Shown: positions 9,893 to 47,527 of the stretch, one piece after another
Layout: every line of letters begins with the position of its first letter
How positions within the stretch are numbered: position 1 is the stretch's first letter
Assembly: GCA_032622095.1 (NCBI GenBank)
Contig: CP136069.1
Span: 2,513,462 to 2,577,461, forward strand
Length of the DNA stretch: 64,000 nucleotides
Source of the DNA: Siphonodentalium dalli
Lineage: Eukaryota > Mollusca > Scaphopoda > Gadilida > Siphonodentaliidae
Direction: 5' to 3'
Program-made: the position numbers and the translations under genes
Notes under the pieces: generated by a model
Told to the model about the DNA's origin: nothing
Databases searched by the model: none
The model's input: the letters and a program-made list of their open reading frames with translations, nothing else

Positions 9893-10660
9893 TTATAGAA
9901 TAATTGTATTATTATTTATATTTATGGCTAATAATACGATCTTGGTGGCGTTACCATTTCTGACTATGGTTTTCTTGTATATGTCAGCCCATGGGTGTTT
10001 ATGATTAACAGTGTTGTAAAGATATGCTGGCGAATTGCGATAGAACATCTTATAGAATTGATGTAGTTCTCCTTTCACTTAACATTTCCCAACCAAGGTC
10101 TGCCAATATATTAATGCTGTTTATGCTTCTAGTTCCTCCCGTTGCTATTCTAGCAGCTTCAAATTGGATTTTTCTGTTAGATCACTTTCTGCTTGCGTGC
10201 AGTTGTCCCATACGGGTGAGGCATATTCCAAGACTGGTCTTATATAAGCAAAATATATTCTCTCTATATTCATACGGTCCAGGTAGTATTTAAATTTTCT
10301 TAGGTGGTTCACTCGTTTCCAGGCCCTGTCTATAATGTCACTTATATGAGCATCCCATGAGCCATGATTGTTAAACATTACCTCATTTACGTCCTCGTTC
10401 AACATATGGAGTCGGGGATGATCAGGGGGGTCAGTTTTACGCGATATCAAGAGGGTCTCAGTTTTTGTCGGGTTAAATTTCACAAGCCATTCTTGTGACC
10501 AGGGTGCCAATCGTTCAATATCACCGTTTATTAATTCGGCCGCCAATGTAGGGTCTTCAACTGTTAAAAATATGGATGTATCATCTGCAAACAAGCGTAT
10601 GTGACCGTTAACATTTTGCGTTATATCATTAATGTAGATAAGAAAAAAGAATATATTGTA
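9893..10660 (-). pseudogene. Non-LTR reverse transcriptase fragment, frameshifted
   Basis: The minus frame 10741-10145 contains the RT palm motif RLFADDTSIFL (YXDD-type box as FADD), the thumb-like stretch LAPWSQEWLVKFNPTKTE, and HISDIIDRAWKRVNHLRKFK and RPVLEYASPVWD further on; this is jockey/CR1-like. The first 25 or so residues come from a family C MITE arm fused in. The frame breaks near 10145 and continues in other frames to about 9893 (YKMFYRNSPAYLYN), so at least two frameshifts are present. The upstream RT fingers and endonuclease are missing. Not functional. Confidence 0.75.
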
Positions 10661-11120
10661 TGTCCGCAACCTACAAATAGTGTGTCTGTCATTTGCATAA
10701 TGATGTCCCCAGAGGGTGAGTTTAGTGATACTAGCCAACACAGCGGGCTCGCATCACCAAATTCACCCTCCGGGGACCTCATTCTGCTTATGCATCATCT
10801 TCTGGAAAGTATCTATAGTCTCAAATTAACATTGTTTTTAGTTACTTTTTCCCTTGTAAGTTTCTACATGTACATGTATATCCCCTAATTTGCGGAAGAT
10901 AAAATGCATAACCGAGGTTACTAATGGGTGAACATCATCAACTTCAACTGGGGAACTTCAATCTGATCCCAGGTTTCCCGTGGCAGTTGAGACCAAAGAA
11001 GAATGAGGTTCCCATGGGTGAATTTGGTTATGATAGCCTAATGGATATCGTCACTAAATTCACCCTCTGGGGACCTCATTCTCCAAATGACAGACACACT
11101 ATTTGCTGGCTTGTATGTTT
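10661..11120. repeat. Family C repeat arms, compound copy
   Basis: GTGTCTGTCATTTGCATAAT, the inverted pair GAGGTTCCC/CCAGAGGGTGA..TTCACCCTC..GGGACCTCATTCT, then ATCTTCTGGAAAGT and AACATCATCAACTTCAACTG, then a second inverted pair at about 11015-11110. This arrangement recurs at 33000, 35405, 38800, 53778 and 61595. The left arm truncates the RT pseudogene at about 10660. Confidence 0.65.
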
Positions 11121-11992: not shown

Positions 11993-12140
11993 CTCACTCT
12001 CGAGTTTCTGTCGCACACGCATCCACACTCTTTAACATATAAACATATTTAAAAGTATTTCAATATGCCTTGTCGATTACAGTCACTTGGAAGCTATATT
12101 TATTATATATTGCTCATGTTTAATAAGATGTAATTGTCAA
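11594..12140. repeat. Microsatellites (TA)n and (TC)n
   Basis: A short (TA) run near 11587-11602 and a pure (TC/CT) tract of about 90 bp at 11901-11990, with shorter CT-rich runs from 11815. The Ser/Leu or Arg/Glu open frames across it are repeat artefacts. The flanks show no gene. Confidence 0.9.
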
Positions 12141-13057
12141 TCAATTTCTTAACAAGGCCAAGCAATACCATAGCTTGAGACTTGATTTGGCGAAAAAGTG
12201 TACTGCAAATGGTAATGAACAATTTCCCATTTCTACTAAAGAAGATGGTATATTCCCCAGAAATATGGATAGCTGCTTTGCCCCTGTCAACTCGTCCATA
12301 TACATTAAAGCATCTATTCCGAACGTGTTAATGATATCGTACCAAATATTATTCCTTGTATTCGATATGGAAGTGCAGTTTATTGTGGTATGTTCTATAA
12401 TGCATTGATATTGCGTATTACATAGTAGACAAAGCCCGTTATCTTTATATGCGGTGTGAGCGATAAGTCTAGCAATCATAAGAAATGTAAATTTTTCATC
12501 TGGATAAAGCCTGCATGTTTGCCACAGTAACGAGGAATTGAGTTATTGAGTTTGGTTTGTGTAAGTCCATATTGTGCCAGATCACTATTTGATTCAATAC
12601 TCTTTCTCCACTCAAGTGCATTTATAGTGTTAATCTCAGTTTTTACGATATTCTTCCAGTATGATTTGGTGGGAAACGTGCTTTCGAGCGTATAGCGTTC
12701 TAGGTACTCATATAAGTTATACCTCTTTAGAACTGTAGAAATATCTGCCATGAAGGATTGTGGGTGAGAAATTCCAAGAATATGACTATGAAGCCGCACT
12801 AGGAACACGGATTTAGCGGTCTTATTTGTATTTAGTCTACATAATGTTGCTAGTAAGCTTAATTTCCTTTTATCAATATAGGATTCAAGCCCACCGCACC
12901 CCAGAAGCCCCTGTACGATGCAAGTTCTGGTTTGTTGTGGGAATCCTTGAATATGTTTTAGGCAAAATCTATGTGCTCTCTCCGTGTATGCATGAGAAAC
13001 ATTAGATATATTCCAGAGCAGTAGATTGTTGACGAGCGGTCGAAAGTTTAAAATCAA
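12141..13057 (-). pseudogene. C-terminal region of a LINE-like ORF2, frameshifted
   Basis: Frame 13057-12476 has HRFCLKHIQGFPQQTRT, LLGCGGLESYIDKRKLSLLA and LCRLNT, the post-RT region of a LINE-type protein. It stops at TGA (12476-12478), which overlaps an ATG of the next frame (12479-12141). That frame holds the downstream Cys/His cluster CLLCNTQYQC..EHTTINC. The two frames are parts of one protein separated by a single shift. The RT domain is absent. It lies between the two copies of the duplication at 11025 and 13833. Confidence 0.7.
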
Positions 13058-13832
13058 GAATCACCGGAATTTGGATTGCAGGCAACTGTAATTAGGGTAC
13101 AACTGGCCAATCGTTGGAGCTAATAATACGGCTGTGTAAGGTCGGGAGGGTTTCTGTGGTGTTGGTGGTAGAATTTTGTTGCTCTACGCTCGTTTTGGCT
13201 GCGGTGGTACTACTGCCGGTACTGGGGAACTGATAGATGACATAGATCGTTTTGTTATGTCATTTACCTTTTTTTTTAGTTCTGTAGTTGTTTTAGCAGA
13301 TAGTCCCGACATTCATGTATTTTTTATTCGTGGCCGTTGATTTGTGTTATTTTTTGACAACATGGGCGACAAATCGCCTGGCCAATCTAAAAAATAATTC
13401 GTTCCGAGTCCAAGAGATCCACAGACATTTTTTATAATTTCAAGAAGATCTGTGTGTTAGTTATTGTACAAATTATTTTGGATCCCGGAAGCTAGCTGTT
13501 TCCCGTTATTGTCAGTACAACAACCGCCGAACGAAAAGTCACAAACCCTGCAACTATTAATTCCGATTCTTAGAATCGGCTTCACATGGTTGAAGCGGCC
13601 ATGACGGCACTGGCACGTGACCATGTTTACGCCTGTCAATCAACTAATTTCAGATTTATATTTAGTGCGATGTGACGTAATTTGGGGGAAGCCCACAACC
13701 GTTCAGAAATGAAAAGTTGATGGGAATGCAATAGACTCAGTATCAGTATGAATCTGAGTGTATGTTTACATAGACTGTTCACTACCGTACAGAGCCTTAG
13801 GGAGGACGATGGACTTGTAGATACTGAAATAC
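13058..13832. other. No gene recognised
   Basis: Mostly unique sequence. A minus frame at 13639-13457 contains several Cys residues but no recognisable domain. It may include more of the LINE 5' side. Confidence 0.35.
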
Positions 13833-14116
13833 TGAATTTGGTTATGATAGCCTAATGGATATCGTCACTAAATTCACCCTCTGTGGACCTCATTCTCCAA
13901 ATGACAGACACACTATTTGCTGGCTTGTATGTTTGCATAGTATAGTAAACTTGATGGTGATCATCGGATGAGGGATGTGGTCTGTAGTGTGCGCCGAATG
14001 ACATAGTCATACAAAGAGTAAATTCCAAGATGGCAACTGCATGGCGGCCATGTTTTTCAACAACATTCGGTCAAAATATGAGACTCACATCGTGAGAAAA
14101 CCACAAAGATCCATAT
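13833..14116. repeat. Segmental duplication, copy 2
   Basis: Near-identical to 11025-11142 joined to 11428-11593; it lacks the extra 285 bp of copy 1. The two copies flank the CT microsatellite and the LINE remnant, about 2.2 kb. Confidence 0.75.
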
Positions 14117-14494
14117 GAAGTTTGGTGATGATTGGTTTGTGGTCTGTAGGGTGTGCCAAGGATTTAGTCATGCAAAGAGTAAAATCCAAGATGGCTGCCG
14201 GTGGCCATGTTTTTCATTGAAAATCGTTCAAACTCCATCCCGTCTACAGTTGATCACAATCATGCCTGCAAAATTTAAAAGTGATCCGGCCATAAATACG
14301 GGCTGTAGGGTGTGTCGGTGGATTCAAATTTGAAATCCAAGATGGCTGCTGGTGACCATGTTTTGCATCAAAATTCGGAATAAATATCTATAGGTCACCC
14401 TGAAGCTACATAAGAAGTTTGGTGAAGATCAAATGAGGGATGCGGCCTGTAGGGCGTCCCAAAGGAAATTGTTGATGCACACAAGCCAACCCAT
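14117..14494. repeat. AAGATGGCTGC interspersed repeat, left part
   Basis: Repeated blocks: TCCAAGATGGCTGCCGGTGG, CCATGTTTTTCATT, CGGGCTGTAGGGTGTG, GAAGTTTGGTGAAGATC. It recurs at 31850-32000, 32750-32985 and 36330-37020. It is interrupted at 14494 by the element below and resumes at 17582 with CATGGCAATAACTTTAC. Confidence 0.75.
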
Positions 14495-16148
14495 GAGGGT
14501 GACGACCCCCCTTTTCGTACGCCGGATGCGGGGTCTGTTATGGCGTATTCCGGATGCCAGACCACCGTACGCCGGATGCCGTCAGGCACATATATCGGAT
14601 GCCGGATGCTTCCATTGATAATTTTTCTTGACGTTAAACAGCAAAAACACAACGAAATTACGTCCGCTAATTTATATTTCTTTGCTCGGACACTCTATTT
14701 CCCACAATTTAGCTAATTATACGTCTCGTTATCACATCTGACATATCTAAATAGTGATAATTAATATTTAGTACCTACTGTTAAAATAAATCGCAATGCT
14801 GATCTGCGATATCGGTTTGTTATATTATCCGATAGAATTGTCGCCCATCTGATGTCTGCTTGGCAATAATTTTGAATATGTAATTAATTTTTAATAAATT
14901 TTGAAAAATGTATTTAGAAGCCTGCATGCGACTTCAATTTAATAACACCATTAAAACTTCAACGGAGAAGACAATCTAAGTACAATCAGGGCGGTGTTGA
15001 CAAAAGAATATGCCCTGGCCTTGGCGAATGGCGAATGGGTTAAGACACTCGGAGTCTCGAACTACAGGTTCAAAGTTGCACTGAAGAGGCTTGAAAAAGA
15101 TCCCGAGTCTCCAAATGGAAGATTTTTTACAGGCGGAGACGGAGAAAGAGTGGCATGGACATATGTACTGTATCGACATGGAATGCAGGGAGGCGACAAG
15201 TGCCAAATATTTACAAGTTCACGGATATGAAATAATATGCTACAAAATATAATTGGGCGGGACCATGAGTGCCCGTGCCTCACAAATGCTTCAATAATTA
15301 ATCACTGATCAAATTGCATGATATTGCGAGTGTGTGGTGTGACATGATGAGGTGTTTGTAAACATGAATTATTATAATCTTAACTCCTAGAGTTATGTGA
15401 AATCATAACATTGTTAGATTTATTATACTATACTGCACATGTATAATGCTATACGTTTGTTAAAGGTACTCAATCCGAATAAACGCTCGCAAATTACTAT
15501 TTCCTTGGCTTCGGGGGGGGGGGGGGGTAAAACATATTTGATTCGAGTCGAGGAACCCATCCATCACAGCTCAGAGTGATCAAATATCGATGTTTGAAAT
15601 CTATTATTTTAGGTGGCCCAATAGACAGTCAACGAGAAGAATTCCATTGACCAAATTGCGGGTAAAGATGGATAACTCTAAAATCAAGTGGCTTTTTGTG
15701 TTAGATATTTGACAAACCGGCAAAATTTCGTTGAACAAAATGTTGATAAATAACAGGTTTTGCAGGGTTTTGTGGAATTTTATACTATAGTTGATTGTGC
15801 TTTTCGTTATATTTGGGCAATTATTAGATTATGATAACTGAAGCGGCATTTCAAAACATGTTGTCGTTTTTGTTGGAATGTGATGATATGGAGACCCTCT
15901 GATTGAGTACCTTTAATTTGAAATATTAAATATTAAAAAGATGTTAGTTTTCTATTTGCGTGTCCCTGGTGTTCAATACTACCGTGTACGACCATGAACG
16001 GTCACCCAAGATTTGCTATATATTAATATGTGGTTTCCGCACGTATGCCACTTCAACTTCTCCTCATTCAGTATATTATACCACTCCTGTCATTTGGAAC
16101 ATGGTCTATGCCTTTCACCCCACCCAATACGCCCTATCATGTCATTAT

Positions 16149-16394
16149 AACTCGCGGCCATATTAGATCCACCATGCATGCAGGTCCGGTTCCATGGTAT
16201 CAGAGATTCTTCCATGCAGTCCCGGTTTTATTGCTACAGATCAAAGTTCTGGCCGGGAGTAGCATTTCCATATGTGGAGCTTTTGAATATTCATGACTTC
16301 CATTTATGTCATATATGGAAATGCTACTCCAAAACTTTGAACTGTAGCAGTAAAACCACGGAACCGGACCTGGTGGATCCAATATGGCCGCGAG
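16149..16394. mobile_element. Palindromic MITE of about 245 bp
   Basis: The inverted ends ACTCGCGGCCATATTAGATC and its near complement (GATCCAATATGGCCGCGAGT) are followed inward by GGTCCGGTTCC/GGAACCGGACC and CATTTCCATAT/ATATGGAAATG. Nested within the 14495-17581 element. No clear target duplication. Confidence 0.65.
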
Positions 16395-16588
16395 TAAGTT
16401 AGATAGGGCGTATATATATATATGTATGATATGAGATCATACATTTAGTAAAAAGTTTAATCTTTCCGTAAAGCTGCTAAATCAAATCATTACTAGTCAA
16501 TACGGAGACTAATTCCAATACCTAATGCCAACGTTCACTTCGTTCCCGAGTCTGTTTTCAATAAATTTAATCAAATAGTATTCCGGAT

Positions 16589-17485
16589 GGGTCGGGGTCG
16601 ATTCGGTCCAGGGCTGTTTCGGCCGGGCTTGTTCGGCCGGGCTTGTTCGGCCCATGGTTTGGGCCGAACAGTCTCACCTAAAAATGTTTTTATCAGTAGG
16701 ATATTTGGATGTTTATATATATTTTTCTTTTGTATGTTATTTTATTATTATAATAAAGCGTTTAATATTTTGATTAAAGTGTATAAAAGGGTAGCATTGC
16801 TCTAGTTTATATTATATATATTGATCTTATGATTTGATTTAATATTCTTACAGGTCTGTGATTTGTCTGTGAGAAAGATGATAATAAAGTTGTAGATATA
16901 TGTTACTATATAGATTGTATCTACCTTTTTACACTCAGAACGGCTTCTGGCATGTTTGTTTGGGCAAGATAAAACGGTGATTGATCTGAGTTGAGAATCA
17001 CTCAGTTGGTGAGTTGAAACTTGTTCATGCAATCACAACAAGAGTATAAATCTTTATAAATAAATAATGTATTGACTGATTTTTCCATGTTTTATCTTGT
17101 TTTTAATCATTAAATAACCAGATGTTTTATCATGTAAACTGTATATATTTACTGTTTTAACTTGTTTTTAATCAATAAATGTTCATAACTTTCATCATAT
17201 ATTCACGTTATTGTTCGAATTTGTTGCAGTGTTAATTACTATGTGTGTATACCCATTACTATTGTTGCGAATAAAACGTTAATTGCAAACATAAATCTCC
17301 ATTGTCATCAAAAGACCGGTCCCAAATCAAAGGCAAATAACATGCCGTCCAATTAACACCCACACTACCTAATTACCCGAATTGAATAGGGGCCGAACAA
17401 GCCCGGCCGAACAAGCCCGGCCGAAAGAGCCCTGGACCGAAAAGTCGAAGACCGAAAGAGCCCTGGACCGAATCGACCCGCTCCC
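16589..17485. mobile_element. 897-bp nested TIR element, 8-bp target duplication
   Basis: Flanked by perfect TTCCGGAT duplications (16581-16588 and 17486-17493). The left end reads GGGTCGGGGTCGATTCGGTC; the complement of the right end is GGGAGCGGGTCGATTCGGTC. Subterminal GGCCGGGCTTGTTCGGCC boxes occur in inverted orientation near both ends. An 8-bp duplication suggests hAT, P or Merlin type. No coding capacity. It landed in one of the GCCGGATGCC boxes of the outer element, so it is younger. Confidence 0.8.
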
Positions 17486-17866
17486 TTCCGGATGCCGCCT
17501 CTCTGTTATGGCGTATTCCGGATGCCGGGGTCCATTTTAAGCCGGATGCCGGATGCCAGGGGGAGGGGGGTCGTCACCCTCACCCATGGCAATAACTTTA
17601 CAAAAAAGTTGAGCTAAAAATACAAAAAACAAATTGCATACGCTTTTGAATGGCGATCATCCATACCAAATCAATTCAGATCCAATAACCCATGGCTGAC
17701 ATATCTGTGCGATGGACAAAAACAAGAGTTCCAGATAAACAAAGAAGGATAACTCTAACACCATAATTTGCCCCACTTTTGAAAGCAGTCATGGTGGCGA
17801 ACCTACACACCAAATTTCATTCCGATAACCCATGGCTGAGATAAATACCCAAACTGCAGTAATGCC

Positions 17867-17977
17867 CTAAATAATCGACTCCTTAACCACAGCAGAATTA
17901 TGGGTAACTTTTCAGGATTTAGACGGAAATGTGGCTTGTTGCTGTGGTTAAGGAGTCGATTATTTAGGGCATTACTA
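17867..17977. mobile_element. Family D MITE, short copy
   Basis: CAGTAATGCCCTAAATAATC and its complement (GATTATTTAGGGCATTACT) as ends; the core is reduced to GGAAATGTGGCTTGTTGC. The left flank is TG rather than TA, the right ATAT. Confidence 0.7.
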
Positions 17978-17979
17978 TA

Positions 17980-18599
17980 TATGGTGTTAGGGGCTACATG
18001 GTTTGCAAGCTTATTAAAGCTGAAAATACGCAGATATATATAGAGAGGTCCTTCTGAAAGCTAGTATATCGACGACATACCTTTCTAGTTTATCGTACAA
18101 GATGATGCTCAGATCCCACATGTAGCATCTGCATTATACCATAAGCTTTACCACGAATGAAACTCGCCAAGAATAAGGATAAGAATACCCAGCTTTCGAG
18201 ACAAACACGTGAGCTGGACACCGGCATATGTATTGTTTGAAAGATTCCGATTAGTGGGACCCTTCTACACAGAAGTGCAGAAAACTGTGTTGGTGTGAGC
18301 GAGATAGATTAATCTGACGAAGAGACGGAAACTGGTCCAGATAATTCTGAATGTGGTAAATCAGAGTAAGCTCAGTTACTGTTGTTTTGATTCTTGGAAG
18401 TCATAATATTACTATTAGGCGCACCTATATATGGTTGAGGCCAGTATGGGCGCTTAGTGGAAAATGAGTTTCGAAATGCCACATCGCGATTATTAATTGT
18501 GGGTTTTCATCCTTCCAAAAGGCTACGACTTATGTTGGAACTTAGCTTTGATGGCATTTGATCGTAATTTTAATAAACGTAAAAGTAAAAAGTAAAAAG
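17980..18599. other. No gene recognised; probable left flank or terminal part of the Polinton fragment
   Basis: Unique-looking AT-rich sequence. Three near repeats of AAAAGTAAAAAGT lie at about 18580-18600. A 700-bp-scale terminal inverted repeat would be expected for a Polinton, but its partner is not in the window, so the left boundary is not fixed. Confidence 0.35.
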
Positions 18600-18676
18600 T
18601 CATTTGACATTCAACTGTTGAAGAGTAAAGATGGCGAAAAAAAACTCCACTGATTAAAAAATATGGTAGTTTTGTA

Positions 18677-18973
18677 ATGGCTATGAATCAGGCACCAACT
18701 CATTTTCGGAAAAAAATGATAAAAGATGCCCCAAAGAGAGTGATTGATTGCATGTCAGAATGCTGTAAAAATATTTTAAAAGGCAATGTAAAACTAACAG
18801 AAGCTCAGAAGCGCAAACTTCGTCCGAGGTGTAGACACCTCAGAGAACTTGCAAGTAAATCAACAACTTTGAAACGAAAAAAACAAATTTTAAACCAGAA
18901 AGGAGGTTTTTTACCACTTCTTATGCTAGCACCGTTACTTGGTAAAGCAATCGCTGGAATACTTCGCGGTTAA
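18677..18973 (+). CDS. Small basic core-like protein (pX-like)
   Basis: 98 residues starting at a true ATG. The N-terminal two thirds are highly basic (Lys/Arg-rich around residues 12-72), with three Cys near 24-31. The C-terminal part is GGFLPLLMLAPLLG-type, a Gly-Gly followed by a hydrophobic, probably membrane-active or amphipathic tail. Basic body plus GGF-hydrophobic tail is the layout of adenovirus core protein X and of the similar small protein in adintoviruses. A DNA-condensing virion role is inferred from that layout, not shown. It is the first gene of the cluster, 36 bp before the next frame. A short upstream ATG frame (18631) ends after eight codons. Confidence 0.6.
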   Translation: MAMNQAPTHFRKKMIKDAPKRVIDCMSECCKNILKGNVKLTEAQKRKLRPRCRHLRELASKSTTLKRKKQILNQKGGFLPLLMLAPLLGKAIAGILRG

Positions 18974-19009
18974 ACATGAAGAAAATGGTCGCTGCATGTT
19001 CCCTTCAAA

Positions 19010-19831
19010 ATGTTGGATGACATTAAAAAATGGAGAATGAGTCTAACTAATCCGAAATTACCACCTAATCCTGAAATTAAGAATGTTTCAAAACTAAGCA
19101 GAGAATTGAATTCAGTTTCTGATCAAAATTTGTCAGAATCTGAGAAGGTTCAATTATATGGTACAACTTTACACAAATTGAAAACTTCTCAAAAATCAGT
19201 TAGAGCTATTTCAACCCCGAAAACAGAACAACCATTTAATCATCATCATAGGGATGTGATAGAAAGTATTCCGTTGAAGATGAGAAAAAAAGCTGAACAA
19301 CTTTTACAACTGATTTCAAAACATCCACAAATGAAGTTTGATGAACATGGCCAATTAAAATATGGTGAAAAAGTTATTAGAGGATCAAATATTGTTGATC
19401 TCCTCAATGATATTGTACGACAAAGAAAAGGTTTCGAACCAACAGGTTGGCAAACCTTTTCACAAGGATTGAGCGAGCTTAATGTACCTCAAGATTTTGT
19501 AGGGAATAGAAACCGCTGGCTTTGGATTAAAAAACATTTGAAAGATGATTCAGATGATGATTTTGAAACTCCGGTACAAAGCATAACACCAAAACGATTT
19601 GATTCTCAACGATTCACACCAATGAAAGGTATAAAAGCAAGACATTCAAAAACTAAAATAGCAGATAGGTTGACACCAAAGGGTATTAAAACAGAAAAAA
19701 ACACAATGGGATCCATACTAGATGAGCAGTTATCTAAAATTTTCTATAATCCGAAGAAAGTTGGAAGTTATGGCGGTGTAAAGAAGCTTTTTGATGAAGC
19801 GAAAAAGCAAAATAAAAAATTAAACTCATAG
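19010..19831 (+). CDS. Conserved Polinton accessory ORF, ending in integrase N-terminal sequence
   Basis: 273 residues from an ATG. A Lys/Glu-rich N-terminus is followed by a central conserved block (residues about 85-185) with SIPLKMRKKAEQLLQLI, RGSNIVDLLNDIVRQRK, PTGWQTFSQGLSELN and FVGNRNRWLWIKKHL. An Asp-rich and Thr/Pro linker follows, then FYNPKKVGSYGGVKKLF. That last block normally sits directly before the integrase core in this family. The TAG at 19829-19831 is reached just after an A-rich stretch; the integrase continues in the -1 frame. The function of the central block is unknown to me. Confidence 0.65.
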   Translation: MLDDIKKWRMSLTNPKLPPNPEIKNVSKLSRELNSVSDQNLSESEKVQLYGTTLHKLKTSQKSVRAISTPKTEQPFNHHHRDVIESIPLKMRKKAEQLLQLISKHPQMKFDEHGQLKYGEKVIRGSNIVDLLNDIVRQRKGFEPTGWQTFSQGLSELNVPQDFVGNRNRWLWIKKHLKDDSDDDFETPVQSITPKRFDSQRFTPMKGIKARHSKTKIADRLTPKGIKTEKNTMGSILDEQLSKIFYNPKKVGSYGGVKKLFDEAKKQNKKLNS

Positions 19832-19833
19832 AT

Positions 19834-20766
19834 GTGAAGAAATGGTTGCAAGGTCAGTCGACATATACTTTACACAAACCAATAATTCGAAAATTCCAAC
19901 GTAGAAAGACTATTGTGGCTGGGATTGATATTCAATGGCAGGCAGATTTAGCTGATCTTCAGAATTTGAAAAAACATAATCTCGTATGTGGAAGATATCT
20001 GTTGTGTGTGATAGACGTTTTTTCAGAATTTGCGTGGGTAGTGCCAATCCACGATCAATCTGGACAAACTTTGATCGAATCATTCAGGAAAATTTTGAAA
20101 TCTTCAAAACGTAAACCAAAATCGTTTCAAGCTGATAAAGGTTCTGAATTCAAAAATGAAAAGTTTTTGAAATTTCTGCGATCAGAAAACATTCATTTCT
20201 TCACAACTGAGAATCCAGAGACTAAAGCAAGTATTGTCGAACGATTTCAAAGAACTTTAAAAACTCGTATGTGGAAGTATTTCACACACAATAAAACTTC
20301 AAGATATATTGATGTTTTACAGCCCCTAGTTGATTCTTACAACAATAGTTATCACCGCAGCATAAAATCGAAACCGTCGGCAGTTACTTTGAAAACTGAA
20401 GCTGAAATTTCCAAAAATCTATATGGAACAGGGAATAAAAAAGGAAAATCTACACTGAAAGTGGGTGACTTGGTTCGTATCAACAAAACCAAAAGAACAT
20501 TTGAAAAGGGTTATTTACCAAACTGGACTCGTGAAATTTTCAAAGTTGATAAAATTTGTAAAACTAATCCAGTAACATACAAAGTTTCTGATCTTGATGG
20601 TGAAGAGATTGATGGATCATTCTACAAACATGAAATCCAGCATATAAAAGACAATAAGGTGTATGAAATAGAATCAGTTATTGATAAAAGAACGAGAAGA
20701 GTAGGTGGTAAAACAGTAAAAGAAATTAAAGTTCATTGGCTTGGAAAATCATTCAGATTCAATTAA
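19834..20766 (+). CDS. Retrovirus-type integrase (Polinton, F54H12.3-like)
   Basis: 310 codons open after a stop at 19813. No ATG lies near the start (nominal first codon GTG), so expression by frameshift from the preceding ORF, or a lost start, is likely. Catalytic triad in order: Asp38 in WQADLAD, Asp101 in QADKGSEF, Glu136 in ASIVERF (34 residues between the last two), the DDE core of rve integrases. HKPIIRKFQRRK before it and HRSIKSKPSAV after it are typical. The C-terminal LKVGDLVRI..YLPNWTREIFKV resembles an SH3-like fold, then a chromodomain-like start (EIKVHWLGK) is cut short. The enzyme would join element ends to host DNA in the nucleus. The catalytic residues are intact. Confidence 0.85.
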   Translation: MKKWLQGQSTYTLHKPIIRKFQRRKTIVAGIDIQWQADLADLQNLKKHNLVCGRYLLCVIDVFSEFAWVVPIHDQSGQTLIESFRKILKSSKRKPKSFQADKGSEFKNEKFLKFLRSENIHFFTTENPETKASIVERFQRTLKTRMWKYFTHNKTSRYIDVLQPLVDSYNNSYHRSIKSKPSAVTLKTEAEISKNLYGTGNKKGKSTLKVGDLVRINKTKRTFEKGYLPNWTREIFKVDKICKTNPVTYKVSDLDGEEIDGSFYKHEIQHIKDNKVYEIESVIDKRTRRVGGKTVKEIKVHWLGKSFRFN

Positions 20767-20995
20767 TCTCGATGAACCGTCACAATTTAAGTTCTGTGGT
20801 GAAAAAGTTGCTAAGAACCAAGTCACCTACTTTACGCAGATAATTATTATTTATATCATAATAATTACATCTATTGTACACATTAGTATCCAGAGCGCAA
20901 ACAAAGAATTGTGGCTTATTCTTCTAAGTAGTTCTCTAGGTTATATTCTACCAACACCTGGACTGAAATTATTGAAAAATACTGAGAAAAAATGA
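20741..20995 (+). CDS. Small membrane protein of the Polinton cluster
   Basis: Open frame overlapping the 3' end of the integrase in another frame, with no ATG; the nominal first codon is TTG. Its first 15 residues may be the displaced end of the integrase chromodomain. It carries a strong hydrophobic segment QIIIIYIIIITSIVHI and a second, weaker one LWLILLSSSLGYIL. The TGA (20993-20995) overlaps the ATG of the next gene as ATGA. Function unknown; small membrane proteins at this position are common in the family. Confidence 0.45.
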   Translation: MENHSDSINLDEPSQFKFCGEKVAKNQVTYFTQIIIIYIIIITSIVHISIQSANKELWLILLSSSLGYILPTPGLKLLKNTEKK

Positions 20996-21824
20996 ATTCA
21001 TTCTACATAACTCTCATGAGTGATAGTTCAATGTCACTTTACCCAGCCAACTCACAATGTTGTTTCACAGTGAAATTACCAAAAACCATACATATTGATA
21101 AAGAGCTTTGGGAAGTTGCAATGGTTGAACTAATTGTAACATCAGAAACATACAACATTATTGGAGATGCCTGCAAAATAAAAATAAAAACTTCTGTTCC
21201 AAGAATTTTACAATATTTGAATAAGATACCAATGAGTGATGTAGTAATTTCAAAACCAGAAAATGGTTAGGAATTAAAAATACCAGAAGGAGCATATTCT
21301 GGTGGAGCACATTTGACAGATACAATTCAAGGTGTAATTGATAGTACAGTAATCAGAATGATTCCAGAACTGGAATTCGAAATCGGATATTCCAAAGCAC
21401 AACAACGAGTTAAAATTTCAACCAATAGTTATACCAAAGTAGGTCTTGTACTCCCCAAAGCTCTTTTGGATAAACTTGGTTACAGAACAGAATCAAACAC
21501 TGTCACATTTGCTACTCCTTCGATAACATTTCCATATGGAGTTGATTTAAATTGTTTGTTTATTCTGACATTGCTGATTATACAATTCTTAGTGATGTTG
21601 AAGCACCGATATTACGAGTGACATCATTCGAGAGTAAAAGAATACATGATGGTAAACATATTAAGCATGAATTCAAAAACTTACATTATGTACCAATATC
21701 AACGTCTAGCTTTGATACCATAAATGTATATATAACTGGTGATACTGGCAAACCAATTCAGTTTATTGGTGGAAAGTCTATGGTAAAGTTGCAATTCCGA
21801 CGCCGAAGTAATTTGTATTTATGA
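20992..21824 (+). pseudogene. Minor capsid (penton-like) protein, broken
   Basis: Starts at ATG 20992 with MNSFYITLMSDSSMSLYPAN, the typical N-terminus of the Polinton single-jelly-roll minor capsid protein, which would form the capsid vertices. The frame is interrupted by TAG at 21268-21270; the same frame remains open to 21621. The C-terminal part (YSDIADYTIL, APILRV, then GKSMVKLQFRR) continues in a different frame from about 21552 to the TGA at 21824, so a small indel lies at about 21540-21560. Total span 833 bp fits a protein of about 275 residues. Two independent lesions argue that it is not functional. Confidence 0.75.
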
Positions 21825-22201
21825 TGATCCCCGTGTATAGAGGCGTATCTAGACAGTATGGAAATGGAATTGGTTCACTACTCAAATCTGCAATGAGAAC
21901 AGTAATACCGTTTCTAAAACCTATTGGTCAGATTGCTAAACAACAAGTATTCAAGCATGGACTTGCTGCAGTCGAAGATATCATTCATCGTGGTAAAAGT
22001 CCAAAAGAAGTATTTTTGAAACAAGGTAAAGAAGCATTGAAATCTTTTGGAAGGGAAACAATAAAGAAAATATCAACACCAAATGGCATAAATAGATCAT
22101 CGCGACCTTTGAAAAATCATTCTTGTCGCAAACGAGTTAGAAGTAAGTCCATTAAAACGCCTGTAAAGAAATCAAAACGATCTCTCGATATATTTGATTA
22201 A
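21821..22201 (+). CDS. Small basic virion protein, pVI-like
   Basis: 126 residues from an ATG overlapping the previous stop (ATGA). The N-terminus is VYRGVSRQYGNGIGSLLKS, followed by an amphipathic or hydrophobic helix region (RTVIPFLKPIGQIAKQQV) and GLAAVEDIIHRGKSPKEVFL. The C-terminal 35 residues are Lys/Arg-rich. An amphipathic N-terminus and basic tail between penton-like and hexon-like genes match the adintovirus protein compared with adenovirus pVI, an internal capsid and membrane-disrupting component. The assignment rests on position and layout. The frame is intact; it ends 2 bp before the next ATG. Confidence 0.5.
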   Translation: MMIPVYRGVSRQYGNGIGSLLKSAMRTVIPFLKPIGQIAKQQVFKHGLAAVEDIIHRGKSPKEVFLKQGKEALKSFGRETIKKISTPNGINRSSRPLKNHSCRKRVRSKSIKTPVKKSKRSLDIFD

Positions 22202-22203
22202 TC

Positions 22204-23352
22204 ATGATGATGCAAAATGGATCATGCGAATGCAGCAAGTTCGAGTTAGATGCTTCTGACGTTCCACCAACAATGACAACGATGTTGGAATCACAATGGA
22301 TAGAACATCACCCGATTAGCTCTTTGAATAATTCCGCACCGATAGAATTTGTAATTCCGCCTCAAACTGAAAAATGGACAGATGTAAATCAATCATATTT
22401 GTACCTGAAATTCAAAATCACAAAAGCAGATGGAACAAACTTGGTTGATGGTACTGATGAAATTGCGCCTATTAACAACTTTTTCCATAGTATGTTCAGT
22501 AGTATCGATATTTACCTAAATAACAAACTTGTAACGGCAAACGGAGACACCTATCCTTATCGAGCCTACATGGAAAATCTCTTGGCTTATTCTGGTGAAT
22601 GTAAAGAAAATCAACTTGCCGCATTAGAAATGTGGTACCCCGACACCGCTAAGCAGTTCACCGAAAACACTAAAGCTGGGGGTAATGATGGATTGAAATC
22701 TCGCCAAGCAATCATAGCAGGTAGTAAAACGGTAGAATTGTGTGGTCGTTTACACACAGATATATTTCTACAAGAGAAATACTTACCAAATGGAATTGAG
22801 ATAAGAATTCGTCTCAATAGAGCGAATCCAAAATTCTCTTTAATTGGTCAGGCCAACGGAAAAATAGTATTTGAAACGGCAGTTTTCAATGTTCGTACAA
22901 TTACGCTGATGCCAGTAGTAGCAAATAACTTGAACCAAACAATAATACAGAAAAATATGAAAATACCGATTAGAAGAGTTGAAGTAAAAACATTCACTAT
23001 TGGTGCAGGGCTTAGATCAAAAATTGAAGATCACCTTTTTCAAGGACAATTGCCAAAGAGACTTTTCATAAGCTTGGTATCAAACAAAGATATGAATGGC
23101 GATATTGAAACGAACCCATTTCATTTCCAACACTTCAATCTGAGAAAACTTGAAGTTAGTCAGGACGGACATACCATCCATAAGCATGCAGTCATGATGG
23201 CAAACATCCATACCAAATTACGTTCATATCTGATAACCCATGTAGACCCATCACTGAGATATATGCTCGGACAGATGGACGTACAGATGGCAGTGTTTGC
23301 GCTGGACCGAAAAAATCGTCTGGCCAAAAAAGTGGCCAAATGTAATTTTTAG
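22204..23352 (+). CDS. Major capsid (hexon-like) protein, 3'-truncated and fused to a repeat
   Basis: 382 codons from ATG. Residues 1 to about 327 match the double-jelly-roll major capsid protein of Polintons (F54H12.2-like): VPPTMTTMLESQWIEHHPIS, then IEFVIPPQTEKWTDVNQSYL, NNFFHSMFSSIDIYLNN, ELCGRLHTDIFLQEKYLPNG and VEVKTFTIGAG. From about 23190 the sequence becomes a dispersed repeat (CATGATGGCAAACATCCATA, compare 17785 and 40215), so the last 55 residues to TAG 23352 are not capsid sequence. The protein would lack its C-terminal part. No stop or frameshift is seen in the retained part. Confidence 0.8.
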   Translation: MMMQNGSCECSKFELDASDVPPTMTTMLESQWIEHHPISSLNNSAPIEFVIPPQTEKWTDVNQSYLYLKFKITKADGTNLVDGTDEIAPINNFFHSMFSSIDIYLNNKLVTANGDTYPYRAYMENLLAYSGECKENQLAALEMWYPDTAKQFTENTKAGGNDGLKSRQAIIAGSKTVELCGRLHTDIFLQEKYLPNGIEIRIRLNRANPKFSLIGQANGKIVFETAVFNVRTITLMPVVANNLNQTIIQKNMKIPIRRVEVKTFTIGAGLRSKIEDHLFQGQLPKRLFISLVSNKDMNGDIETNPFHFQHFNLRKLEVSQDGHTIHKHAVMMANIHTKLRSYLITHVDPSLRYMLGQMDVQMAVFALDRKNRLAKKVAKCNF

Positions 23353-23655
23353 TGGCCAAATAAAACAAAAATGGCCAATCTTTTTTGGCCAAATTAAATC
23401 CTCACAATTGATGACTAAATTATATTTTTTAAATATATAACTCTCTGACTCTGTCGTGTCGCTGACACCATGTTCGCCAACTAATCAAGCAATGGGGTGT
23501 GTTAGTTGTCATCGCTATTTTCGCCGAAATAAAACAACAGTTATGTTGCTTATTATCTTAAGGTGTTGAATACCTATTGTTGTATTAATAGCCTTCATGG
23601 TGTAAAGCCCAGTTGTTGTTATAAGACGGGAGGCAGTTTATGACACATTACGTAA
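23190..23655. repeat. Repeat fragment replacing the element's right side
   Basis: ACATCCATACCAAATTACG and GACGGACGTACAG blocks are shared with 17785-17850 and with the 40110-41060 array. A run of TGGCCAAA words follows (23320-23395), and then unique AT-rich sequence with no gene. Confidence 0.6.
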
Positions 23656-23779
23656 TTGACACGCCATCGCTGGAACATCGATTGTAGGACAATGCATTTA
23701 CGTATTTCATCAGTGCTGAGATTAAGGTTTTTGATGATTAGTAATCGCCTTAAGTGTACAACCATCACCATCCATAACT

Positions 23780-24120
23780 ATGTTGAAAATTATACCCTTA
23801 TGGACTTCTTTTCCAGAACTATACGGCCGAATGGGTTCATATTTGGTGTGGATGTTCCCTAGGGGACTAACATTCAGATTTGTTCAAATGAGGTGACTGG
23901 GTCAAACAGTTGCGAAGCCAGGGCCATAACTCTTTTCCCTCCATAGTGATTCTTTTGAACATCTTCTCAAATACCATCAGGCCAAATGGGTTCATATTTG
24001 GTATGAAGGATCCTTGGTTGACCGGGGTTCAGATTTGTTCAAATGAGGTCACTGGGTAAAATGTGGGCAGCGCCAGGGACATAACTCCAAAAAATATTAT
24101 TTTTGTTTTGTATTAAACTC
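23780..24120. repeat. GGGTTCATATTTGGTATGAA interspersed repeat
   Basis: Units of about 150 bp containing GGGTTCATATTTGGT, TTCAGATTTGTTCAAATGAG and CCAGGG.CATAACTC. Two units here, several more at 25300-26190. Confidence 0.65.
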
Positions 24121-24136
24121 CATGGTCAACTATATA

Positions 24137-24723
24137 TCTACTATATATTTTGGAACTTCTGTTTGTTGTTTGTTTGTCTGTTAGCCATGGCCGGGAAAAC
24201 TGCCGGACGGATTGAGCCCAAACTTCCTACCTGAGGGTAAAATCACAGATGAAGTGTCATCACACCGCTTCTGAGAACGTCAGAGCACTCCTTCTCCATT
24301 CCCCCGCCACCGCAATGGGAATTCATGGGTTAATCGCGTGATAGTTAAAGAGCGTTCGTATCCTCATGTCGTTGATAAAGAGCGTATGTGTGTAATGTGA
24401 TTCTTACGTCTGGGTCTGTAAGACTGTATCCAGACATGAGCGTGTTGTGTGACGTACTTAGGGCTTTCCACCCGAGGTGATCTTCACCTTGAAACGGGTA
24501 CCCACAAACTTACCTCTTTTAGGGACGGGTACCATCACGGGACGGGTACCATCATTTCTCTTGATTAAAAAGGCAGAATTAACTTAAATTAAATAAAAAA
24601 ATTAACGGATTTGATTCTTATGTCTGTTCGTACTTAGGGGTTCCTATGAATGGGGGAGATTTTCATCGGGTCAGTTTTTCCGCCCGAGGTGACCTTCACC
24701 TTGAAACGGGTACCCACAAATGA
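24137..24723 (+). mobile_element. Helitron-like 5' end fragment
   Basis: Begins TCTACTATATATTTTGGAAC after an A, followed by TGTTTGTCTGTTAGCCATGG and GGGAAAACTGCCGGACGGAT. The same 5' segment starts the next copy at 24724. No CTAG 3' terminus of its own was found. It includes two direct copies of CTTCACCTTGAAACGGGTAC (about 24483 and 24697). Confidence 0.5.
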
Positions 24724-25042
24724 TCTAATATATATTTTGGGACTTCTGTCTGTTTGTTTGTCTGTTAGCTATGGCCGGGAAAACTGCTGGACGGATTTCG
24801 ACGAAATTTGATACCTACGGGTAATTTTGTCCGGGGAGTGTTTTGGACGGGTCCTATCGTTACCCCGACCTTCAAAATGGTCAATTCAATGTCAAATCTG
24901 GTAAAACTGACGATTTCGACGAAATTTGATACCTAGGGATACTTTTGTCCGGGGAGTGTTTTGGACGGGTCAAATAGTGACTTCGACCTTCAAAGTGGTC
25001 AATGCAAGGTCAAACCCCGGACGAAGTCGGGTCACCTGCTAG
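24724..25042 (+). mobile_element. Non-autonomous Helitron-like element, 319 bp
   Basis: The 5' end is TCTAATATATATTTTGGGAC. Internal ATTTCGACGAAATTTGATAC units are shared with 9215-9790. The 3' end has the hairpin CCCGGACGAAGTCGGG (about 25016-25031), then 11 nt and CTAG followed by T. TC start, a 3' hairpin about 10 nt before CTRR, insertion before T and no TIR are Helitron hallmarks. No Rep/helicase gene. Confidence 0.65.
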
Positions 25043-25300
25043 TATATATATATTTGTGCCCCTGGCCCTTTATTCAAGTTCACTGCTTCTGCCACCCTGG
25101 TCCCAAAAATAATATTTACTAAAATTCTTAACAGAGAATCATTATTAAGAACCATTGACTTTGGCTCTAACTGTATGCATGTATGCCTACACATGTCAAG
25201 TGAAATCTGACATTTGTATAAACATTCCCTGGAGATCTGCTAGAGGTCATTAATTCCCTATTACAACAACAATTTATCTCATGTTTAACACATTTATCAG
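25043..25300. other. No gene recognised
   Basis: A (TA) run after the Helitron end, then unique sequence with no supported feature. Confidence 0.35.
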
Positions 25301-26190
25301 GGTCACCAGGTCAAGTAGGTGCAAGGCCAGTACATTACTCTTTTTCTCCATAGTAATTCATGATATGTCGTCTATGCAATAATCAAATGGCCTATTTGCT
25401 TATATTTGGTATGAAATTACCTTGGGTGACAGATTTGTGAAAATGTGATCACAAAGTTCAATAAGGGCAGAGCCACAGACATAACTATTTCACCACATAG
25501 TAATTCTTAAAATATGTTTGCAAGAGCCAAGAACTAGTTGGCTTATTTAGCATGGAATGTTCTTGTTTGACTGCAATTCAGATTTTTTTTTAATGGAGTC
25601 ACCTGGTCAAATATGGGTCAAGCGAAGGACAGTTTCACTCTTAATATGCTTCCTTCATTAGTATGAAGGGTTCTTTGGTGTCTGGGATTAAAATATATTC
25701 AGATGGGGTCACCACTCACCAGGTCAAATTTATTCAGATGGGGGTCACCAGGTTAAATAGGGTGGGACCAGGGACATAACTGTATGTCTCTATAGTAATT
25801 CTTAAAATGTCTTCTCAAATGCCCACAAACAGAAATAATGAATTTCAAAGCAAATAAAACCAATATCTTATACCTATTATGTTCTTAAGTGGCCACTGAA
25901 GACATAGCAAAACTCAAATTTCTTGTATCTGTGAAAAAAATGACAAAAAGTGGATTTTAAAAAATGGTCTGGCCGCAGGGGGCCCACCCCCCCCCCCAGG
26001 CCCTATATGTTGCAAATTTTTTCTGACCCCCCCCCGATGGGGTCACCAGGTTAAATAGGGTGGGACCAGGGACATAACTATATGTCTCTATAGTAATTCT
26101 TAAAATGTCTTCTCAAGAGAGGTTGGACTATTTAGCTTTCATATACTTGGAGGATCCTTTAGTGACTGAGATTCAGATTTGTCAACATGT
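25300..26190. repeat. GGGTTCATATTTGGTATGAA interspersed repeat, several units
   Basis: Repeated GGTCACCAGGTTAAATAGG, GGGACATAACTATATGTCTC and TAGTAATTCTTAAAATGTCT at about 25740-25820 and 26035-26115, plus older units from 25300. A C(13) run lies near 25986. Confidence 0.65.
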
Positions 26191-27232
26191 TAAGAAATGA
26201 CGGGGCTATGGGGCGTTAACACTTTTGTGTCTAATAAAATCATTGAAATACCAAATTCATTAAAACATCTACCTTGGAACCACCTGACTGATTGGTCTGA
26301 CATACATGTATGGTGTTTTGGGTCCATGGATAATTGGGCTTCAAACATGTCTAAATGGTTTAATAAAAAGGTGCTTGTGAGATTGGATATTTCAAACAAT
26401 TGAGAAAGTTTGAGATGTTGGTTGTGAAATACCAACCTAAGACTTGGGAGTCTGGAGGGGACTTGTTGAGCTGGAGGAGGGGGGTGATCAGTAGTGTATA
26501 GTTGGTAATTTCAAGGTGGATATTCACCCATCTACATACATGAAGCCTCTCTAGCCACATATCCTGTTTAGATCTACTTCTTTTAAAGTTATTATGAAAA
26601 GTTCTGACTGTTGTGGTCTCCAGAGTCCCAGTCTTATCAGTCTTTGCAGTCTGTTGGCGACGCCACAGTCATTGACTGTCTTGTTTGAAAAATCGTATAG
26701 CATATGCTTGATGCTGCCATCATACCATGTAATATATAATTATCCTAGTTTATTACCATTTTCCTTGTTTCTCGTCATGTTTGCGATCGCCTCGGCCATT
26801 TTGAATGCGTGGTACTTATCAACCGAAACCGTGTGATTCCCCACCGTGAATTTGCCATGAAATCACGACATGGTAAAGTAATTATATATAGTTCAGGGGT
26901 ACTAAAACTAAGATTCAATTCAACAAAGATAGGTTTTTGTAATGCTATATTTTATTGTGATTTAGTTCAAGGAACCAATCACTGTTTACTACAATGTAAT
27001 ATCACAGATTTATAAAAAACACGATTTCAACATAATCAATTTAACAAAACAGAAAAATACCACACCATATCACACATAGACATTATCATGATTTGTGAAC
27101 CCATTTGTCTTATAAATATATAGCTGTATATGTATTTTTAATTAGATTTGATTTATGGTAGATAATACAGGTTATTTTAGCAGTTCAGTGATAAGATGAA
27201 TAAAAGTCGTGCATTATTAATAAAGCTATGCC
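26191..27232. other. No gene recognised
   Basis: Non-repetitive sequence with short frames on both strands (for example 26197-26403) that lack recognisable domains and splice context. Confidence 0.35.
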
Positions 27233-27484
27233 CAAGCCTTGAAATAGTGTGTCTGTCATTTGCAGAATGAGGTCCCCAGAGGGTGAATTTAGTAATGCTA
27301 CCCCGCATAGTGGGCTAGCATCACCAAATTAACCCTCTGGGAACCTCATTCTGCTGAGGTGTAAGCAGAATGAGGTCCCCAGAGGGTGAATTTGGTGATG
27401 CTAGCCCGCTATGCGGGGTAGCATCACTGAATTCACCCTCTGGGGACCTCATTCTGCAAATGACAGACACTATTTCAAGGCTTG
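27233..27484. mobile_element. Family C MITE with perfect 8-bp target duplication
   Basis: Flanked by GCTATGCC (27225-27232 and 27485-27492). The ends CAAGCCTTGAAATAGTGTGT and its near complement are followed inward by GTCTGTCATTTGCAGAATGA. It contains two inverted modules (GAGGTCCCCAGAGGGTGAAT and complement) joined by GCTGAGGTGTAAGCAGAATG. This copy defines the family's ends. An 8-bp duplication fits hAT-like mobilisation. Confidence 0.85.
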
Positions 27485-27589
27485 GCTATGCCAAAGGAAA
27501 ACATGTTTGTTTTGTTTTTTATCATCAAGCCATGTTCTGTGTAAATCCCTTCCAAGTCTGGGGCTTCCTAAAATTTTACGAAAACCCTG

Positions 27590-27760
27590 CGCCAATGCAT
27601 TCTCTTATATAAGCTAGATTCCCATAGGTAGCCTCACATATATAAGAGAATACATTGGTCTAACAATATTTACCTTGACCTTGTAAGTGCATTCTCTTAC
27701 ATAAGTGAGGCTCCCTATGGGAGACTCGCATACACAAGAGAATGCACTGGCACCGGATCA
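27590..27760. repeat. Hairpin repeat fragment
   Basis: Two degenerate hairpin units of the type in the 3226-5990 array (GCGCCAATGCATTCTCTTAT and GTGAGGCTCCCTATGGGAGA). Confidence 0.7.
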
Positions 27761-28074
27761 TTAATGCTGCATCTGTGCAGCTCCCATCATCAAATAATTG
27801 AATGTAACCCACATGGCTATATGGGGCGACTCATGGGTTAATTATGCCATGTGCTGTGTATATACATGTTGTGTTTTTTGCTCATAGGGCATGACATTGT
27901 TACCATACCCAACCTCCAATGAGAAAGTGACCCCATGCTGCAGCGATATTGTATAAACACAATGCTGCAGCGACCCCATGCTGCAGTGAAATCATATAAA
28001 CGCAATGAGAAAGCAACACAGTGGTGATCGAAATCATATGAGGATTCCATACTGACAATATTCATCAACTCCTA

Positions 28075-28237
28075 CAGTAATGCCCTAAATAATCAACTCC
28101 TTAACCACAGCAGAATTATGGGTAATTTAGTCGGAAATATGGCTTGCAATGACAACAAGCCATATTTCCAACTAAATCCTGAAAAATTACCCATAATTCT
28201 GCTGTGGTTAAGGAGTCGATTATTTAGTGCATTACTG
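28075..28237. mobile_element. Family D MITE, 163 bp
   Basis: TA-flanked (28073-28074, 28238-28239); ends CAGTAATGCCCTAAATAATC and near complement; palindromic core with GGCTTG and CAAGCC. Confidence 0.75.
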
Positions 28238-28452
28238 TAGTTCGTCTACTGGTTTATGTTTCCATTATCGTATACAAACAACTATTCATGTCTGTTGTTG
28301 CATATCTGATGATACACATGGTATATATACCTGTGGCCAGTGTGGGAAATACCCAATGATATTATAACATCAAATACCTGTTGGCTAACGTAATTACCTT
28401 CTTACCTGTCGACATTGGCTATATGACGTGGTGCTATTGGGAAAAGGGTTAA

Positions 28453-28834
28453 CCCTTTACCCAACAGAAGGGCCCTGTGCCAATGCATTCTCTTATATAT
28501 GCGAGTCGACCATAGGTCGCCTCGCATATATAAGAGAATGCATTGGCTTAACACATTAAAAATTATAAAATTGTTAAAGAATGTAAGAAAAAATGGTAAA
28601 AAGTGTTAAAAAAAGATTTGTTTTAGGCCAATGCATTCTCTTATATATGCGAGGCGACCTATGGTCGACTCGCATATATAAGAGAATGCATTGGCACAGG
28701 GCATAACTGTAACTATCACAATGTGGTCAAGGAGCCGGTTCCAATGATATCCATATGTGTATGGTTATATTGAGACAGACCGAAGATATTTTAGGCTGTT
28801 GAAACTTTATTTGGCCGGTTTGTTGGGTAAAGGG
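28453..28834 (+). mobile_element. Family B MITE, TTAA-flanked, full-length
   Basis: TTAA at 28449-28452 and 28835-28838. The ends are CCCTTTACCCAACA and its complement TGTTGGGTAAAGGG. Inside are two hairpins with arms CCAATGCATTCTCTTATATA, separated by an AT-rich spacer (AAATTGTTAAAGAATGTAAG), and then a unique-type right half (ATGTGGTCAAGGAGCCGGTT, TTATTTGGCCGG). TTAA target and CCC start are piggyBac-type features. No transposase. Confidence 0.8.
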
Positions 28835-28839
28835 TTAAG

Positions 28840-29157
28840 CGTGATTCTCGCCTAATGCTGATGTTGTAGGTGCAAAAATTATTATTTTACATCTATTTTC
28901 TCCAATTTAGAAGAATCTTGTAAAAAATTGGTATTTGAATAGCGTCGAAACTGCGTGAGAGTGAGGCAAAACTGTGGGAACTTGCGCACATACAACATGT
29001 ATTCAATGTGTGTAATATACAACCTTTATACATCTCATCACTTGTGTGTACATTTTAATACATGATACTTTAGCAGTCATCGTGATGTATACATGAATTA
29101 TATTTACATGATGACGAAACATGAGAGTGGTTATCGCTATGATTTCATGACCCGTAC
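28840..29157. other. No gene recognised
   Basis: AT-rich sequence with no supported feature. Confidence 0.35.
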
Positions 29158-29393
29158 GAAGACTGCAGCAGACGACACTCCATAGTGCATGCTTCCATCT
29201 GTGTGGGGCTCCCTGTGGGTTAAACATTAAACTTTATATATCGCCTCGTTATTATCCCTTTCATGACCCTTAGAGAACCCCACAAAGACTGCAGCAGACG
29301 ACACTCCATAGTGCATGCTTCCATCTGTGTGGGGCTCCCTGTGGGTTAAACATTAAACTTTATATATCGCCTCGTTATTATCCCTTTCATGAT
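29158..29393. repeat. Two direct copies of a family A derived unit
   Basis: GACTGCAGCAGACGACACTC to TATTATCCCTTTCATGA occurs twice (from about 29159 and 29287), nearly identical. Each holds the family A core and right end GGGGCTCCCTGTGGGTTAAA. Confidence 0.7.
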
Positions 29394-29427
29394 GGGAGCT
29401 AACTCTGCTGGTGAAGCATTAAATATC

Positions 29428-29767
29428 ACTCGCCAGCATGTTCTCTCATATATACGTGTCTCCCACTCGCCAGCATGTTCTCTCATATATACGTGTCTCC
29501 CATAGGCAGCATGTTCTCTCATATATACGTGTCTCCCACTCGCCAGCATGTTCTCTCATATATACGTGTCTCCCACTCGCCAGCATGTTCTCTCATATAT
29601 ACGTGTCTCCCACTCGCCAGCATGTTCTCTCATATATACGTGTCTCCCATAGGCAGCATGTTCTCTCATATATACGTGTCTCCCACTCGCCAGCATGTTC
29701 TCTCATATATACGTGTCTCCCACTCGCCAGCATGTTCTCTCATATATACGTGTCTCCCATAGGCAGC
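29428..29767. repeat. 37-bp minisatellite
   Basis: About nine copies of a unit starting ACTCGCCAGCATGTTCTCTC and ending ATATATACGTGTCTCCC; two interspersed shorter variants use ATAGGCAGC. The unit is one half of the array hairpin (TTCTCTCATATATACG). Open frames of 95-155 codons across it are repeat artefacts. Confidence 0.9.
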
Positions 29768-30142
29768 CTTGCATATGTAAGAGAATGCACTGGCTTACAA
29801 GGTCAAGGTATATATTGTTACATGGGAGACTCGCATGTACCGGTATACGAGAATACATTGGTACAGAGTTTTCAAAAAATTTCAGGAAGCTCAAGTCATG
29901 GTTAAAGAACTCTACCGTGGCTACGAGATCCACATTCGGCAATATTGTAAATGACAAATATGGGACCACAATGGAAATTTGTGAAATAACTTTGGCAATT
30001 GATTTAGACGTAACATTCATAAGATTATGAGAATTGAAATATCGGCACAAAAGGTCATGACACATGTGTTATGGATAACCACCATTTCATTTCCTAGTAC
30101 ATGGATAATCATTTCTCCATCTGGCTTTAAGTGTTTAACCCT

Positions 30143-35373: not shown

Positions 35374-35404
35374 TTTGTAATTTTAGTGTTTTTAGCTCAA
35401 CTTT

Positions 35405-41879: not shown

Positions 41880-41883
41880 TTAA

Positions 41884-42176: not shown

Positions 42177-42180
42177 TTAA

Positions 42181-47462: not shown

Positions 47463-47527
47463 AATTATTAAAATCCGCAGTGCAGAAAAGGGGAAGTAAT
47501 ATTCTGTCAGAAGAAACAAATGAATAA

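Follow-up and report, generated by a model that had tools for sequence, protein, structure and literature searches.

The window analysed here, i.e. the whole stretch of 64,000 nucleotides, contains nine plus-strand frames of 84-382 codons lying consecutively at 18677-23352 (open reading frame list). What kind of element do they belong to, and how much of it is left? The sequence-only reading recognized a Polinton/adintovirus-type element that had kept its integrase and its virion gene block, and left open whether it was a truncated copy or a reduced derivative. Our analysis indicates that 18632..23187 (+) is very probably an endogenous DNA virus of an animal genome, namely a Polinton/Maverick copy that is truncated and decaying. 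It is an ordinary fragment of a common virus-like element, of a known kind, and it matters little by itself.

Gene content and order

Within 18601-23187, plus-strand stop-free runs of at least 90 codons sum to 1565 codons; in 200 shuffles that preserve dinucleotides the sum averages 55 and never exceeds 385. The longest stop-free run on the minus strand of 17601-24000 is 85 codons. The frames are real; the penton gene lies in pieces, and the p273 frame ends in sequence matching the integrase start.

Reference loci were obtained by searching genome contigs with the alignment of the major capsid protein (MCP). Of 44 candidate stretches, five loci (L001-L005) were confirmed; all five lie in bacterial MAGs, and we infer that they are host DNA inside these MAGs. 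L001, from the MAG of an Escarpia tubeworm symbiont and likely a host-contaminant contig, carries on one strand polymerase B (PolB), ATPase, pX, p273, an integrase with a chromodomain, a membrane protein, penton, pVI, MCP and protease. PolB, integrase and chromodomain of L001 are clearly supported in Pfam. Its ATPase passes narrowly (Adeno_IVa2, 22.0 bits for a cut-off of 21), as does an RNA_helicase model, its protease falls just under (Peptidase_C5, 19.6 for a cut-off of 21.3), and its penton, pVI, MCP, pX and p273 frames lie under every Pfam cut-off. L002, from a Bathymodiolus symbiont MAG, is a broken copy with the gene order of L001. In L003, a membrane-protein frame that is L001-like by eye comes first, followed by penton, pVI and then MCP; L004 matches penton and MCP, and L005 is more distant (MCP 24% identity) with a different gene order. 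Two observations concern these loci themselves. A second integrase remnant, perhaps of a nested or tandem copy, lies at 4430-5258 of L002 beside the main Polinton copy; positions 1174-10069 of L005, on a contig labelled as a Rickettsiaceae MAG, hold frames for MCP, a chromodomain integrase, a penton-like protein and, by eye, a pVI-like protein, in rearranged order. No relative was confirmed among viral contigs, where the candidate stretches numbered 1 for the MCP, 155 for the MCP alignment, 600 for the L001 polymerase and 23 for the integrase alignment.

The features of the window element are as follows.

18632..23187, plus strand: Polinton/Maverick remnant, middle gene block truncated on both sides; L001-protein matches at 18635-23178 in the order of L001, matches of L001-L005 stop-free runs to 23232
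18629..18973, plus strand: pX-like core protein, start displaced; L001 pX E 9e-11 from 18635, L002 46.5% E 1.9e-14
19010..19726, plus strand: p273, conserved; L001 28% E 3e-21
19727..19789, plus strand: first part of the integrase, in the p273 frame and out of the main integrase frame; L001 integrase residues 7-27, 48%, E 0.005
19816..20766, plus strand: main frame of the rve integrase; Pfam rve, L001 integrase 43% E 6e-80
20771..20995, plus strand: small membrane protein, start unrecognizable; L002 8520-9014, 41% E 0.001, the L001 frame at E 0.92
20992..21824, plus strand: broken gene of the penton (minor capsid protein); matched by the L003 penton frame at 21001-21216 (E 1.2e-8) and at 21546-21806 (E 7e-13)
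21821..22201, plus strand: pVI-like small protein; L001 24.8% E 2.6e-07, L003 E 2.8e-7
22204..23187, plus strand: MCP of the double jelly-roll family (fold predicted), truncated at about codon 325-328 of about 432; 389 relatives, L001 40% E 8e-77, match ending at 23178
23188..23242, plus strand: right breakpoint, where a dispersed repeat follows the MCP stub; 80% identical to 17785-17834 over 55 bp

From about 18630 to 23187 the window thus aligns pX, the probably helical p273, rve integrase, small membrane protein, penton, pVI-like protein and MCP. The same seven genes stand in the same order in L001, between PolB plus packaging ATPase and an adenovirus-type protease, which bears out the proposed Polinton-type origin. 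A host gene cluster with introns was rejected, since the frames adjoin as in L001 and are explained without introns.

The pX-like and pVI-like proteins suggested earlier are matched by the L001 frames in the pX and pVI positions. Homology to pX starts at 18635, ahead of the first ATG in this frame (18677), hence the displaced start, and the Pfam model Adeno_PX matches the frame under its cut-off (E 0.056). No lesion was seen in the pVI-like frame of 126 codons; it gave no Pfam match at E<=10 and no match to a capsid-protein profile was found, so that of the two frames for which capsid profiles had been anticipated only the 382-codon one lived up to the expectation (389 relatives and the predicted double jelly-roll fold of one of them). 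The 273-codon frame has three relatives among 874 candidates, and its 3' end continues in frame into integrase-like sequence. Its structure is predicted as helical with low confidence (mean pLDDT 58.5, pTM 0.29), a model too poor for a fold search.

Integrase and capsid genes

Among the nine plus-strand frames, the integrase alone reaches a Pfam cut-off. The rve domain (PF00665) is matched at E 2.5e-10, with 40.9 bits for a cut-off of 32.6, and the residues D, D and E encoded at nucleotides 19945, 20134 and 20239 are identical in 11 of 11 rows of the integrase alignment (A6, built without the p273 frame). An rve integrase with its DDE triad, as expected of a Polinton, does therefore lie beside capsid genes, as had been claimed, in a frame that is incomplete at both ends. 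Aligned with P0122, one of the 120 relatives listed and 67% identical, the main frame covers residues 44-352 of 361; it lacks about 43 N-terminal residues as well as the chromodomain end. No Chromo match is listed for this frame at E<=10 (Pfam), the frame ending inside the chromodomain region; both rve and Chromo occur in 101 of the 120 listed relatives (manual count). The relatives number 3899 among 4903 candidates. Solved retroviral integrases match the frame at E 2e-07 and weaker in a search of solved structures, and a PHROGs search returned transposase matches.

The claim that the virion block is kept is not supported, the penton gene being interrupted by a stop and a frameshift and the MCP gene being truncated. 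The penton pieces 20992-21270 and 21313-21621 belong to one frame split by the stop at 21268-21270, and the piece 21552-21824 is in a different frame, which places a frameshift before it. L001 penton matches this last piece only (E 7.7e-11), and the middle piece, with no match of its own, is assigned by position and frame. The pieces match the penton-position frames of L001 and L003, so that for a protein characterized by a single jelly-roll the assignment is made from sequence.

Of 1747 candidates, 389 are relatives of the 382-codon frame at E<=1e-3. The named ones among the 120 listed come from Mercenaria, Saccostrea and Ostrea, all 'F54H12.2-like', together with one protein of a Thiodiazotropha MAG; 75 of the 120 are 425-475 residues long. 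The intact relative P0002, to which the MCP stub is identical at 222 of 326 residues, is predicted to be a double jelly-roll by structure modelling and fold comparison. The 382-codon frame is accordingly capsid-related and belongs to a family predicted to be that of the double jelly-roll MCPs, the fold being predicted at the level of the family through P0002 and the copy in the window being truncated. The stub lacks the last ~104 of ~432 residues, among them, by comparison with P0002, the final strands of the modelled fold (after residue ~390). By our reading, the last ~54 codons of the frame are not MCP. Compared with solved structures, the MCP sequence gave chance-level matches only; P0002 had no match in the phage collection, and PHROGs returned nothing for P0002 or for the L001 penton frame. 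No Polinton or adintovirus label appears among the 50 VIA-align matches listed for the P0002 fold, which excludes nothing.

The bivalve 'F54H12.2-like' proteins of Mercenaria, Ostrea and Saccostrea are close relatives of the MCP frame and carry a worm gene name. We read them as Polinton-type capsid genes. They should not be taken for host genes, because the family has a predicted double jelly-roll capsid fold and is found in elements with Polinton gene order; the Mercenaria 'F54H12.2-like' model P0110 also matches the pX and p273 regions. In a partial literature search, judged by titles, no paper was found that links 'F54H12.2' to a Polinton capsid, and we make no claim that the link is unpublished.

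Ends, missing genes and rival readings

The left end of the remnant lies near the pX start and is placed by the end of homology alone. The right end lies inside the MCP gene, at about codon 325-328, where the dispersed repeat begins. The match of this repeat is short; it is also 82.6% identical to 17650-17694 and has shorter matches in an array near 40.4-40.8 kb. The MCP matches of L001 and L002 both end at 23178. Several of the 120 listed MCPs align past the junction, the furthest to 23307, aided by a short identity ('LRSYL') in sequence that resembles the repeat; we take this as chance, the exact right breakpoint being uncertain. In the MCP alignment (A3) the window row had been cut beforehand at codon 328, so that its last aligned pair, 328/326, is no independent boundary. 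The MCP tail of ~100 residues was not found 3' of the junction (tblastn, window), nor was it detected elsewhere in the window, where two far matches occur at 3779 and 60235 (E 0.03 and 0.066).

Significant tblastn matches of the ten L001 proteins are confined to 18635-23178 of the window. Elsewhere PolB and ATPase gave one match each (E 0.31 and 0.23) and the protease none listed at E<=1, these queries being distant annelid-contaminant proteins that very decayed remnants may escape. The noted absence of PolB, ATPase and protease from the window holds to that extent. Outside 18635-23232, the stop-free runs of L001-L005 gave 21 short matches of 12-49 residues (E 0.003 to 0.05), which are taken as chance.

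A complete Polinton would integrate by its own rve integrase and copy its DNA by its own polymerase B; its ATPase would package this DNA into capsids built of penton and double jelly-roll MCP, which its protease would mature. This is the general model of such elements, in part after PMC4028283 and PMC11071308, and not a result from the window. The window copy keeps the middle gene block alone; it has very probably lost both ends, and its remaining genes are accumulating a stop and frameshifts. It is expected to form no virion and to have no mobility of its own. With its penton, integrase and capsid genes broken and its replication genes lost, the remnant is probably inactive. Gene content, gene order, the lesions and the repeat at the right end are observed directly. 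We infer the cause of the truncation, the inactivity and, solely from the nearest named relatives, a host that would probably be a bivalve.

Of the two alternatives set out initially, the ends near the pX start and inside MCP speak for the truncated copy. A reduced, non-autonomous capsid-and-integrase derivative, having lost its replication genes and depending on full-length Polintons in its cell for spread, copying and packaging, is very unlikely. The DDE triad and the greater part of the MCP frame have indeed been preserved, with 67-68% identity to relatives, and helper elements could plausibly exist, Mavericks being frequent in molluscs: they were present in all mollusc genomes analysed in one survey (PMC10294476). 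Yet both ends are abrupt, the right one within a gene, and in the relative L001 the missing genes flank the block on either side. With penton and MCP both broken, and the integrase too, an element reduced to a complete set of virion genes is disfavoured. Nor do any of the 25 inverted pairs listed, out of 47 in 12000-30000, fit as terminal inverted repeats at the ends of the remnant.

Slightly less probable still is a host-domesticated block in which virus genes would be under selection, e.g. for antiviral defence. It would account for the lesion-free pVI-like frame and the length of the open frames, but at least four genes of the remnant carry lesions. As small a chance is left to a (nearly) intact element whose apparent damage would consist of sequencing or assembly errors; the small number of lesions in otherwise long frames would fit this, but such errors account poorly for a dispersed repeat at a partial MCP and for the failure to detect PolB, ATPase or protease on either side in the window. 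The truncated, decaying Polinton copy is therefore retained.

Classification and surroundings

The gene set described for Polintons comprises PolB, integrase, ATPase, protease, MCP and penton (PMC4028283, PMC11071308). Like Polintons/Mavericks (class Polintoviricetes), the remnant has on one strand an rve integrase, a gene of the putative double jelly-roll MCP family and genes in the penton and pVI positions; its relative L001 has PolB, ATPase and protease as well. Unlike intact Polintons, it has no detected PolB, ATPase, protease or terminal repeats in the window, and its genes are broken. It is filed as a Polinton-derived fragment and not as an intact Polinton, because protein-primed PolB, packaging ATPase and Ulp1/adenain-type protease were undetected in the window.

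Adintoviruses are defined by an OTU-bearing PolB, a BLAST-recognizable hexon and a chromodomain integrase (PMC11071296). The chromodomain integrase family of the relatives and the pX/pVI-like small proteins are adintovirus-like. In contrast, the PolB of L001 has no listed OTU match at E<=1 (Pfam), and the window frame, ending inside the region, has no listed match to the C-terminal chromodomain that L001 and L005 possess. The nearest comparison for the hexon is the sole adintovirus-labelled capsid in the BFVD list, 9% identical, in a list of structures and not of BLASTp matches. Of the initial double label, Polinton stands; none of the three defining adintovirus features was demonstrated in the window, where neither PolB nor a Chromo match was detected, and adintovirus in the strict published sense is at most a candidate label. 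In the Mercenaria genome table, whose rows are cited here apart from their column heads, the Maverick rows read 1.69%, 7,091, 31,368,848 and 1.93%, 6,453, 34,529,082 (PMC8905726).

The AT-rich window abounds in satellites and dispersed repeats, and neither a tRNA nor an Rfam scan returned a match in it. Reverse-transcriptase frames at 34118-35473 (-), 56536-57567 (+) and 10145-10741 (-) are retroelement remnants (RVT_1 E 4.8e-36, 1.5e-10 and 0.005, the last under the cut-off). Satellite arrays at 37393-38599, 46580-47463 and 47520-48948 have units of 47, 49 and 79 bp with 96-99% matches. Left of the Polinton remnant, 17852-17983 is a short, MITE-like inverted-repeat element with further copies near 6.6, 28.1, 30.6, 33.5, 42.7 and 51.9 kb. 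The inverted repeats 17852/28153 were rejected as element termini, since their arms belong to the dispersed repeat. A hairpin-type repeat around ATGCATTCTCTTATATATGCGAGG recurs at 3485-5850, 27585-28702, 41583-42181 and elsewhere, both singly and in tandem, with near-perfect inverted arms.
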